Origin: Pseudalkalibacillus sp. SCS-8
Lineage (GTDB): Bacteria; Bacillota; Bacilli; Bacillales; Fictibacillaceae
NCBI RefSeq assembly: GCF_040126055.1
Contig: NZ_CP143541.1
Location: 1,426,001-1,490,000, forward strand
Direction of reading: 5' to 3'
DNA: 64,000 nt
Part shown: positions 30,181 through 55,367 of the stretch, piece after piece
Position numbering within the stretch: the first letter of the stretch is position 1
How the letters are laid out: each line of letters begins with the position of its first letter
Notes under the pieces: generated by a model
Seen by the model: only the letters and a program-made list of their open reading frames with translations
The model's database searches: none
What the model was told of the DNA's origin: nothing
Position numbers and translations under genes: made by a program

Positions 30181-30609
30181 GCTCTGTTATCTTTTATTCT
30201 TGATTTTTAAGATTATTGAAGCGTAAGGTGGCGACTCCTGCGGGAAAAGCAACAGCTGAAGACCCCAACGAGTAATTAAGGATCTTCGACTAAAAGCCAC
30301 CACGTCCTATGGTGAACATCGAAGCCACCACATCCTGTGGAAGTGAGGAGGCTGAAGCGTCTGTCCAGCTCCATCGCCTAGGTGCTCGAGGTCGCTTCGA
30401 TTCCTTTCAAAACACTAATGGTGTTTTTTACAAGTAATCTCCAGCGCTTGCACTACAAGCATAAGGGCAACTAAGGCTCAGCCTTCGCTAAGGCTTGGCA
30501 TCGCCAAGTTTTCTTTATCGCACCTGAACAAGGCGATTCCGCATTTCTTAACCCGCGGAAAGCGTCCACCTGAAGCTTTTCAAAATCAACACCATACTTT
30601 AACAGAGCC
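30180..30609. mobile_element. GGCTCTG repeat element, mosaic copy 2
   Basis: 430 bases from GGCTCTG to CAGAGCC, flanked by ATATTTTA (30172-30179) and ATATTTTT (30610-30617), an 8-bp duplication with one mismatch. The first ~87 and last ~58 bases match the reverse complement of copy 1. Two further blocks are inserted inside (about 30267-30343 and 30361-30552). The second begins CTGTCCAGCTCCATCGCC and looks like an unrelated dispersed repeat. The frame on the minus strand (30471-30686) is repeat-derived. No other gene in the 526-base gap. Confidence 0.72.
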
Positions 30610-51100: not shown

Positions 51101-51541
51101 ATGCTAGCAACTTTAGAAGGTATAGAAATCTTGGACGGAGCTGATGAATTAGCCAAAATGGTCGTCCATTCCGATATAGCTCAAAATTATCTATCAGCAA
51201 AGAAAAAGCTGAAACAAGATAAAAAAGCACAGAAACTCATTTCCGAATTCATCAAGATGAAGGAAAAGTATGAAGAAGTGCAGCGATTTGGTAAGTATCA
51301 TCCGGATTACAAAACTGTTTCCACAGACATCAGAGTATTGAAACGCGAAATGGATCTCCTTGATTCAGTGACCGAATTCAAGAAGGCAGAAAAAGAATTA
51401 GAGAAGCTTTTGAATGAAATAAGTGGATTGCTTGCCGGAAGGGTTTCAAAAAACATTAAAGTCCCGACTGGCAACCCGTTCTTTGATAATATGTCCTGTG
51501 GTGGAGGCTGCGGTTCAGGCGGCTCATGCGGTTGTGGATGA
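51101..51541 (+). CDS. ylbF: YlbF (RicF), subunit of the RicAFT complex
   Basis: 146 residues from the ATG at 51101, after GGAGGTG; the longer frame lacks a site. With YmcA and YaaT it forms the complex that modulates RNase Y cleavage and supports biofilm formation, competence and sporulation. Helical core (~1-120) and a C-terminal Cys-rich tail (CGGGCGSGGSCGC, ~132-145) that carries the [4Fe-4S] ligands of the family. RNase J1 and SR1P in this window belong to the same RNA-decay network. Confidence 0.93.
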   Translation: MLATLEGIEILDGADELAKMVVHSDIAQNYLSAKKKLKQDKKAQKLISEFIKMKEKYEEVQRFGKYHPDYKTVSTDIRVLKREMDLLDSVTEFKKAEKELEKLLNEISGLLAGRVSKNIKVPTGNPFFDNMSCGGGCGSGGSCGCG

Positions 51542-51553
51542 TTGCAATGATAA

Positions 51554-51590
51554 GAGGTCTGACACATTTGGAATGGTCAGACCTCATTTT
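51554..51590. terminator. Terminator of ylbF
   Basis: A perfect 10-bp stem (51554-51563 with 51576-51585) and ATTTTC tail. Confidence 0.8.
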
Positions 51591-51608
51591 CAATCCATAT
51601 AGATGCAG

Positions 51609-51929
51609 TTAATTCTTGAAACGGATACAATCATGACAAAGATTACCGCAACAAAACATCTTTTCGTTTGGGACATAAAATCGACAACGATAAACGAATG
51701 TCCTTCCTTCTTGGCGTACATAAATCATTTCGGATTGAAGCCGTTTTCCTTTCATGGATTGCACAGCAGCTTTTTCAAGAATTCGTTCTGCTTCTTTCTT
51801 GTGAATGGTTTCAGTAAAAGTCAGGTAAACAAAAGGAATTCCAGCCATCATGGCTTTTGAAATCGTTTCGATGCGCTCTTCTCTAGTCAAATGGCGATCG
51901 AAAGAAGTCCATACCGTTTCAAGGTCCAC
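51609..51929 (-). CDS. Hypothetical protein with C-terminal Cys cluster
   Basis: 106 residues from the GTG at 51929, 7 bases after AAGGGG (TTG at 51947 also in frame). Soluble; helical middle, then strands. The C-terminus FCCGNLCHDCIRFKN holds four Cys, suggesting a metal site. Family not recognised. It lies between ylbF and ylbG on the opposite strand. Confidence 0.65.
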   Translation of the reverse strand: MDLETVWTSFDRHLTREERIETISKAMMAGIPFVYLTFTETIHKKEAERILEKAAVQSMKGKRLQSEMIYVRQEGRTFVYRCRFYVPNEKMFCCGNLCHDCIRFKN

Positions 51930-52022
51930 TGCCTCACCCCTTAACAAGAATGTTTGACAAACAATTGAATGGAACAGTCCTTCATGCTAGACTGTAAAAA
52001 ACTGAAGCAAAGGAGTATGAAA

Positions 52023-52298
52023 ATGCTGACAAATCGAACAGGTTTAGCGATTTGGCTTCACTCTTTAAAATACATAAAACAGCTTCGTAAATATGGAAAT
52101 GTGCATTACGTATCGAAGCGGATGAAATATGCGATCCTTTATTGCGATACCGCCCAAAAAGAGCGAGTAATCGAGAAGCTTGAAAAACTTCACTTCGTCA
52201 AGAAAGTAGAGCCGTCCCATAAAGCCTATATCAAGACGGAGTATCAAAATGCTATGCCTGATAAGGCGAAGGAATACGATTATAAAATCGGATTATAA
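52023..52298 (+). CDS. ylbG: YlbG family protein (UPF0298)
   Basis: 91 residues from the ATG at 52023, 6 bases after AAAGGAGT. '[37 protein letters not shown]' is the UPF0298 signature; the length matches the B. subtilis protein. Basic, soluble, function unknown. Followed at 4 bases by a convergent gene. Confidence 0.93.
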
Positions 52299-52302
52299 AG
52301 AT

Positions 52303-52680
52303 CTATTGCCAAGCCGGGATGAGATGCTGCAACCGTAAGATTCCAGTTAAATATTGATAATACAAAGCGATTTCGTTAAATTCAGTGGATGGTCTTACTT
52401 CAAGGGTTTGGACTTCTTTACCATGCTTTTGAGCGCAGGCATTGAAAAGCTCCCAGCGTTTTGAATGTTCCTTTACGCCTTCACGGCATATGTAAATTGG
52501 CTGGAAGTTGGATTCGCCGGCCGGGTCCATTGTAATGGCCAATGAACAAACCTCTTGTTCTTTAATTACAGTCTTCAAAGCGATGAATCGTTTGACACGC
52601 TGTGCATTCGAATCCGCTAATTCAATCAGCTCATAAAGATCAGAATATCCTTCTCCTAATTCAATGAATCGTTGTATCAT
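52303..52680 (-). CDS. Hypothetical conserved soluble protein
   Basis: 125 residues from the ATG at 52680 (ATG at 52689 lies too near AAAGGA). No signal or membrane helix. 'MIQRFIELGEGYSDLYELIELADSNAQRVKRFIALKT' and the C-terminal 'FNEIALYYQYLTGILRLQHLIP' look conserved, but I cannot name the family with confidence. Confidence 0.75.
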   Translation of the reverse strand: MIQRFIELGEGYSDLYELIELADSNAQRVKRFIALKTVIKEQEVCSLAITMDPAGESNFQPIYICREGVKEHSKRWELFNACAQKHGKEVQTLEVRPSTEFNEIALYYQYLTGILRLQHLIPAWQ

Positions 52681-52759
52681 AAGAATCATTCCTTTCTGTT
52701 CATCCTTTACTGTAGCATGAAAAGGTCGAGGTGTGAACGAAGGAAGGGTGAGGATCTAT

Positions 52760-52938
52760 AAAAAAGGCCCGCAGGTACTTTGCCTGCGGGCTGTTCCATA
52801 TCCTTACATGCTAAAAACATCATTGAAATGTTTGTTTGCCGTAGGAACAGAACAATGGGAGAGGAGAAACCGGAGTTAAGCCTATGGGGAAATTAAGCTT
52901 ACTCCGTGGTTCAACTAACAACACCACGTATGATGTTG
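52760..52938 (-). ncRNA. csfG: CsfG-like sporulation small RNA
   Basis: The ylbG-ylbH(rsmD) gap is where B. subtilis encodes CsfG, a forespore-specific RNA of about 200 nt conserved in endospore formers. Here a minus-strand transcript of about 180 nt is predicted from a sigma-G-like promoter to a strong terminator (stem 52767-52775 with 52783-52791, T-run 52760-52765). It has a 5' hairpin (AACAACA...TGTTGTT) and two C/U-rich single-stranded motifs, TTTCTCCTCTCCC (52857-52869) and TTTCCCC (52886-52892), of the anti-Shine-Dalgarno type. The sRNA identity rests on position plus these features. Confidence 0.7.
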
Positions 52939-52945
52939 TTAATCC

Positions 52946-52975
52946 TATTATTGTACAGTTCAAATGTGGTTATAC
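52946..52975 (-). promoter_or_regulatory. Sigma-G/sigma-F-like promoter of the CsfG-like RNA
   Basis: Minus strand: GTATA (52971-52975), 18-base spacer, AATAATA (52946-52952). Against the sigma-G consensus GHATR-N18-CATWHTA this matches all five -35 positions and six of seven -10 positions. Confidence 0.6.
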
Positions 52976-53047
52976 ACCTTATTTAAGATTTATACTTATT
53001 TGTGGTAGGATAGTGGAGGAAAATAAAACGACGTGAGGTAAGGTTAA

Positions 53048-54104
<1,057 letters not shown>

Positions 54105-54158
54105 TCCTGACCATACATACTGATTCGTTGAAACACGATGATATGAACAACACCTTTT

Positions 54159-55367
54159 TCATCTTAAGGTGCGCCATTGAAGGAGCAAATAATAAAGTAA
54201 GCTTACGAAAGTCAAGGCAGCCCCGATTGTCAATAAGTGATCCCATGCCCCGTAAATCCATGAGATGGATGGATGTGAAGCAAAGGCTTCCACGACGGAC
54301 CCACTTCCATTATGATTAGAATATAACGGCTTCCACAAAATGACTGTCAAAAATGCCGCAATGAACCCGTGGCAAACTCTAGCCAACAAAAACGGCCGGA
54401 ACCTGATATCGGTTTCGGCCAAAATACTTGCCACTTGTGCCTGTACCGAAAAACCGTTGAAGGCTAGGATGAAGCTTACAATCGTAGCTTGCTGTAATAA
54501 CATTGCATCGGATGTTTCACTAATCAAACGGCTGCCGAGTGTTATCTCAAACAAGCCGGATATGAATGGTGGAACGATTTCTTGAGAATATCCGAATAAC
54601 ATGAAGACGGATGTTAATAGTGTTGCGATTACCGTTGTAATATGAAATTCTGCTAGCATTCTGTTCAATACAGAAAATAAAAGGATGAAACCCCCGATCA
54701 TTAGTAAGGTTTGTATAGAATGCTTGACGGCATCTCCCATCTGTTTTCCGAATGGCCGGGGGTCCATCTCCCTTACTTGATGCATTCCGTTCAACGCATA
54801 TGTAATCAGGTTTCGTTTTGCCTTGGGTCGCCGTATCGATTTCGTTTGCATAGGTTCTTTGTGAAAACGCATGATAAACCCAACAAATATGTTTCCGAGA
54901 TAATGAGCAGCGGCGAGCAGGATACCTAGCTCTGCATTATGGAAGAATCCTACGGAGACAGCTCCTAAGATGAATAAGGGATTTGAACAGTTCGTAAAGG
55001 ATACTAGCCTTTCAGCCTCGACACGGGAGATTTCCTTTTCTTGACGTAAACGGGCGGTCAATTTTGCTCCCGCTGGAAACCCGGATGCAAGCCCCATCGC
55101 CCAAACAAATCCACCGGACCCGGGCACTTTGAACAGAGGGCGCATGATCGGCTCCATTAAAACACCGATAAATTTTACGACTCCAAAACAGATCAGCAAT
55201 TCACTGATGATGAAAAAAGGAAGTAAGGACGGGAAAACGATCTCCCACCACATGGTCAATCCTTGCAATGACGATTCAAAGGCTGCTTTAGGAGATACCA
55301 TGATGGAAACAGCGAATAACGTCGTCAGCCCAGCAATGATTACATTTTTTATCCGTGAACGGTACAA
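54159..55367 (-). CDS. ylbJ: Sporulation integral membrane protein YlbJ
   Basis: 402 residues, TTG start after AGGAGG. About ten membrane segments with two 'Gate' (nucleoside-recognition-like) halves; 'PSLLPFFIISELLICFG' and 'GFPAGAKLTARLRQEKEISRVEAERLVSFTNCSNPLFI' are characteristic. YlbJ is a sigma-E-controlled mother-cell membrane protein needed for spore maturation in B. subtilis. It is convergent with coaD. Confidence 0.92.
   Translation of the reverse strand: MYRSRIKNVIIAGLTTLFAVSIMVSPKAAFESSLQGLTMWWEIVFPSLLPFFIISELLICFGVVKFIGVLMEPIMRPLFKVPGSGGFVWAMGLASGFPAGAKLTARLRQEKEISRVEAERLVSFTNCSNPLFILGAVSVGFFHNAELGILLAAAHYLGNIFVGFIMRFHKEPMQTKSIRRPKAKRNLITYALNGMHQVREMDPRPFGKQMGDAVKHSIQTLLMIGGFILLFSVLNRMLAEFHITTVIATLLTSVFMLFGYSQEIVPPFISGLFEITLGSRLISETSDAMLLQQATIVSFILAFNGFSVQAQVASILAETDIRFRPFLLARVCHGFIAAFLTVILWKPLYSNHNGSGSVVEAFASHPSISWIYGAWDHLLTIGAALTFVSLLYYLLLQWRTLR

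Follow-up and report, generated by a model that had tools for sequence, protein, structure and literature searches.

The window analysed here, a stretch of 64,000 nucleotides from the genome of Pseudalkalibacillus sp. SCS-8, carries csfG on its minus strand, opposite the gap between rsmD (ylbH) and a gene that we take to be ylbG. It is an additional member of a known RNA family. We lean towards the reading that csfG of this Pseudalkalibacillus specifies a forespore RNA made by sigma-G, whose C/U-rich stretches would pair with Shine-Dalgarno regions and lower translation. The family itself having been known, what is new here is evidence from natural variants on which parts of the RNA are important, together with a lead from the distribution of CsfG and RoxS.

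Identity and genomic context

Read from its promoter, the minus strand of the ylbG-rsmD gap has a hairpin at the 5' end, two unpaired stretches rich in C and U and, last, an intrinsic terminator (Table 1). A covariance model search, which the initial annotation had suggested, matched Rfam family RF00516 at 52758-52909 with 56.8 bits (E 3.1e-9; gathering cut-off 50). Its identification as CsfG is supported by where it lies, by its sequence and promoter, by the Rfam match and by its phyletic range; the location opposite the gap and a length of about 180 nt, both proposed in the same annotation, were borne out by the minus-strand elements with the RF00516 match and by the distance from predicted start to U-run.

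Table 1. Features of the csfG locus, in positions of the window
Feature	Positions	Strand	Remarks
ylbG (presumed name; DUF2129)	51969..52298	plus	neighbour in the window
DUF7147 protein gene (PF23648)	52303-52689	minus	between ylbG and csfG, on the strand of csfG
csfG RNA	52760..52940	minus	start near 52940 predicted from the promoter, end in the U-run; about 181 nt predicted
Intrinsic terminator and U-run	52760..52791	minus	stem 52791-52767, GCCCGCAGG..CCTGCGGGC
Hairpin 3	52792..52854	minus	from the fold; long
C/U-rich motif B	52857..52869	minus	UUUCUCCUCUCCC; unpaired, between hairpins 2 and 3
Hairpin 2 (P2)	52871..52906	minus	from fold, alignment and pair counts; recoded yet paired in the genus
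C-rich loop A	52885..52893	minus	AUUUCCCCA; loop of hairpin 2, from fold and conservation
Hairpin 1 (P1, 5' hairpin)	52915..52942	minus	from the fold; 52942-52931 paired with 52926-52915
Sigma-G-like promoter	52946..52975	minus	GTATA 52975-52971, 18-nt spacer, AATAATA 52952-52946
rsmD (ylbH)	53048..53602	plus	neighbour, divergent from csfG

The RNA resembles CsfG (S547) of Bacillus subtilis in its place and strand, the type of its promoter, its C-rich stretches, its structure and its terminator; Marchais et al. (2011) is said to be the paper on CsfG of that species. It differs from that RNA in a hairpin 2 recoded with compensating changes, and its hairpin 3 exceeds that of Fictibacillus by about 30 nt. 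The RF00516 match spans 152-154 nt in 6 of the 8 genomes of the window's genus and about 121 nt in Fictibacillus.

For comparison we used 124 csfG loci, of which 34 came from the family search; of the places that the class search listed, 30 were returned and 60 picked by hand, while weak class matches were left out and four weak second hits skipped. A copy of rsmD is present at 123 of these loci, the sole exception (L073, genome G415) having none within the 1.5 kb examined. The window's genus group (g1) takes in Pseudalkalibacillus decolorationis and P. salsuginis. Elsewhere in the window, a Bacillaceae-1 RNA (RF01690) matches the plus strand at 30274-30341 with 56.9 bits.

Strand and structure of the RNA

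Rfam names RF00516 the "ylbH leader" and draws it on the plus strand, opposite to csfG. A cis-acting leader of rsmD, as that label implies, would accord with Rfam scoring the plus strand, with a plus-strand fold in the window better than its own shuffles (-57.0 kcal/mol, z -3.4) and with a minus strand that is the more stable one at only 53 of the 124 loci. However, in the window the plus-strand fold is 10.8 kcal/mol weaker than that of the minus strand (-67.8 kcal/mol, z -6.8, with 0 of 200 shuffles as low), and the promoter and terminator lie in minus orientation and are mostly kept across the family. The wobble pairs also point to the minus strand: over hairpins 1 and 2 in 73 sequences it gives 74 G-U and 22 A-C cells, which are not independent because related sequences share changes, and the two counts are swapped on the other strand. 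Such an excess of G-U over A-C would be expected of a minus-strand RNA. In B. subtilis, according to passages of PMC3574147, northern blots detected only the strand opposite to Rfam's drawing, that is, CsfG. We consider an rsmD leader very improbable.

The RNA could instead be the 5' leader of the DUF7147 gene, which lies immediately downstream on the same strand. A strong terminator separates the two, however, and the gene was seen at only 43 of the 124 csfG loci, a count from which short flanks may conceal more; we consider this very improbable. A coding role for csfG is argued against by the indels in its loops between relatives, as judged from the alignment.

The 5' hairpin, the strong terminator and the two C/U-rich motifs of the initial annotation were all recovered as predicted elements, loop A falling in the loop of hairpin 2 and motif B between hairpins 2 and 3. 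As folded, the arms of hairpin 1 are AACAACATC..GTGTTGTT, and its first two bases precede the predicted start of the RNA. In the window's genus AAGCUUA/UAGGCUU replaces AAGACUUA/UAAGYUCUU in hairpin 2, which is still formed. The stem at 52791-52767 is the only terminator-like site in 51500-54500, a count that proves nothing alone because shuffles of the region yield 2.4 on average.

The structure is further supported by an alignment of 73 sequences, obtained by thinning the 124 loci for similarity. In a hand-written structure 94.4% of the cells are paired, compared with 90.2% in shuffles (0 of 500 reach 94.4%), and 12 of 20 pairs have changed on both sides, including all 7 of those counted in hairpin 1; part of the variation in hairpin 2 comes from the window's genus. 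Unconstrained RNAalifold returned only 7 pairs, two of them within the motif-B region and the other five in hairpin 1; hairpin 2 changes little outside a few lineages, and its columns are broken by the alignment.

Two loci of the genus, L033 (G028, P. decolorationis) and L034 (G032), have, in place of the usual csfG terminator, a long hairpin of 67 bp whose end is GTCAGTCCC; in L034 a T-run follows. Their 5' hairpin has an entirely different sequence that looks capable of pairing. We rejected a mobile repeat as the nature of the long-hairpin terminator, as it occurs in one copy each in 2 of the 9 genomes searched.

Promoter and sigma factors

The sigma-G-like promoter GTATA-N18-AATAATA of the initial annotation is present, with 10 of the 11 letters of the sigma-G consensus, and relatives show a similar arrangement. 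With a spacer range of 17 to 19 and the best score taken per upstream region, 78 of 118 distinct upstream regions scored 10 or 11 of 11, against 4.6% of mononucleotide shuffles, which supports the motif.

GG before the -10 element is a motif typical of recognition by sigma-F. At 3 nt before the -10, GG is present in 69 of the 106 copies scored from other genera; none of the 7 of the window's genus has it, TAC, TTC or TCC being found there instead. GG is not a defining trait of CsfG, because the remaining 37 of the 106 lack it too. The window itself has TAC, unlike most relatives with GGN, and therefore its promoter suggests sigma-G more than sigma-F; a weaker sigma-F input may follow. CsfG is under the forespore control of sigma-F and sigma-G according to passages of PMC8216469 and PMC4409812. 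In this species the RNA of about 181 nt would be made in the forespore by sigma-G, sigma-F contributing less than it does in relatives.

Motif B in natural variants

The 13 unpaired nucleotides of motif B (TTTCTCCTCTCCC) are identical in 113 of 113 distinct csfG cores aligned, a figure that leans upward because the loci were found with a model that rewards motif B. In the csfG copy of genome G151 (L249, 1343-1401), hairpin 2 is lost and the 13 nt GGTTTCTCCTCTCCC are kept; downstream of motif B, that copy has a hairpin whose loop is C-rich. These variants suggest, at the level of sequence, that motif B matters most and that hairpin 2 is replaceable.

In four genomes RF00516 gave a weak second hit; we rejected these hits as paralogues, since none was matched at E up to 1 by R1, the model that we built in this analysis. 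A single genome (G191) had two R1 matches.

Distribution in Bacilli and link to sigG

At E up to 0.001, RF00516 matched every one of the 34 genomes in the window's family, 32 of them over the cut-off, and, in a drawn sample of Bacilli, 230 of 398 genomes (193 over the cut-off). Run on the same 398 genomes, R1 also matched 230, seven differing from the RF00516 set, so that the union amounts to 237. sigG, detected with TIGR02850 at E at most 1e-75, was found in 267 of the 398 (238 over the cut-off), the window's genome included. None of the 237 csfG-positive genomes is without sigG, while 30 of the 267 sigG-positive ones gave no csfG match. csfG thus tracks sigG, except in one sigG-bearing family without csfG, and the tie to sigG is supported by these counts.

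That family, f18, accounts for 24 of the 30 genomes; the others are G048, G112, G151, G204, G278 and G366. In G112 and G204 rsmD is missing too, so the absence of csfG there may be an assembly gap. Genus g64 of family f19 (G079, G302, G347, G391) appears in neither the csfG nor the sigG list; the other f19 members among the matches listed are positive for both. We take f18 as Planococcaceae because, in a comparison with 23 named rsmD proteins, those of its 24 genomes came out nearest to Lysinibacillus, Ureibacillus or Solibacillus. No csfG was found in these 24 sigG-bearing genomes, where the best R1 score at rsmD loci with filters off was 15.8 bits (E 0.13), nor at 9 named Lysinibacillus, Solibacillus and Ureibacillus rsmD loci, where it was 12.5 bits (E 0.28). 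Those 9 belong to 80 named rsmD loci, 38 of which R1 matched and 42 of which it missed: 25 of Planococcus or Planomicrobium, 3 of Caryophanon, 4 of Lactobacillaceae, 1 of Streptococcaceae and the 9 just mentioned, these last presumably from spore-forming genera and the other 33 from non-spore-forming ones.

Search for targets

According to passages of PMC8216469 (2021) and PMC9147052 (2022), no mRNA target of CsfG was known, in agreement with the initial annotation. The introduction of a 2025 paper makes the loose statement that mRNAs for sporulation, germination and competence are regulated by CsfG and KrrA; it cites the 2011 paper on CsfG and a paper on KrrA. The target prediction that the initial annotation had suggested was carried out as two pattern screens, in 10 and 12 genomes, and no target shared across genera emerged from them.

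The first screen looked for GGGAGAGGAG with RTG 3-13 nt later. In the 30 of 33 listed places examined over the 10 genomes, nothing recurred between genera apart from the complement of csfG itself. Among its matches are genes that we take to be spoIIIAG (G003) and lysA (G032); the string matched in spoIIIAG is also listed for G011.

The second screen, for GGGAGAGGAGAAA, tolerated one mismatch in 13 and returned 118 sites, 12 of them csfG copies, over 12 genomes. The 106 others compare with 129 for the reversed pattern, so that extended sites complementary to motif B are not in excess, and 46 of the 106 lie at start-like positions. No such site is shared between genera at a translation start among the 106 sites of the 12 genomes. 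Among 13 pairs of homologous loci, the site is at the same place in two only. A coding site in G000 (the window's genome) and G003, in a gene that is presumably uvrC, was rejected as a shared target, conserved codons explaining it. The start region of a protease gene in two Pseudalkalibacillus genomes (L335 in G000, L340 in G032) is complementary to motif B at 12 of 13 letters, with the mismatch at the same position. At L296 in the window's genome (G000:C1:2754888-2754900, minus), 16 nt early in a lipid-kinase-like gene, inside roughly its first 20 codons, are complementary to motif B; we treated this as chance, since the locus has no homologue among the hits in G032. Near-identical flanks within a genome, which would point to ribosomal RNA, were not seen among the second-screen sites.

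The absence of an excess of complementary sites counts against an antisense role, as do the sigG-bearing Planococcaceae that lack CsfG. The 13 invariant letters and, in most lineages, the nearly invariant stems of hairpin 2 argue in the same direction, being more than Shine-Dalgarno pairing should need. Motif B might instead be read by a single fixed partner, either a protein or some structured RNA, with mRNA pairing secondary. Such a partner would fit the invariance of motif B in all 113 copies, its retention where G151 lost hairpin 2 and the lack of an excess of extended complementary sites. CsfG would then be a protein-sequestering or ribosome-directed forespore RNA. In B. subtilis CsfG co-precipitates with Hfq, as described in passages of PMC3574147, yet hfq was found in 23 of the 24 csfG-less f18 genomes; we thus rejected loss of Hfq as the cause of csfG absence in Planococcaceae, and Hfq binding does not speak for a fixed partner. 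We regard a fixed partner as unlikely, if worth keeping in mind.

The reading that we prefer is still that of an antisense RNA. Three hairpins and the terminator would keep the two C/U-rich stretches open, and these, in a plausible anti-Shine-Dalgarno role, would pair with G-rich Shine-Dalgarno regions of a set of forespore mRNAs. This pairing would lower their translation, as RoxS does.

Comparison with RoxS and FsrA

RoxS (RsaE, RF01820) has C-rich unpaired regions, as CsfG has, and differs from it in sequence and locus. Passages of PMC4409812 propose a mechanism common to both as possible, and those of PMC8216469 place RoxS under ResDE and malate, not forespore sigma factors, and group FsrA with CsfG and RoxS for its C-rich regions. 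FsrA shares such unpaired regions with CsfG but, unlike it, is a Fur-controlled iron-sparing RNA.

At E up to 0.001, RF01820 matched 24 of 24 f18 genomes (10 over the Rfam cut-off) and also G195, G116, G342 and G151, which gives 28 of 37 genomes, 14 of them over the cut-off; there was no match in G000, G032, G003, G020, G109, G075, G344, G053 or G073. In the window's family it matched 0 of 34 genomes, the window's own included. The two RNAs are therefore reciprocal in these families: the Planococcaceae have RoxS in 24 of 24 and CsfG in 0 of 24, the window's family CsfG in 34 of 34 and RoxS in 0 of 34. None of the 67 genomes checked for both has neither. This reciprocity is a lead and not a test, because csfG status guided the choice of genomes and, in essence, two clades are being contrasted. 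The presence of RoxS in all 24 CsfG-less Planococcaceae fits overlapping roles of the two RNAs. It is tempting to go further and propose that CsfG and RoxS are partly interchangeable, with at least one kept in sporulating Bacilli, and that motif B of CsfG reads one universal partner rather than a changing list of mRNAs; taken together, we think this improbable.

In summary, natural variants point to motif B as the most important part of CsfG, a strongly conserved RNA of spore formers, and the Planococcaceae are sigG-bearing relatives that manage without it.
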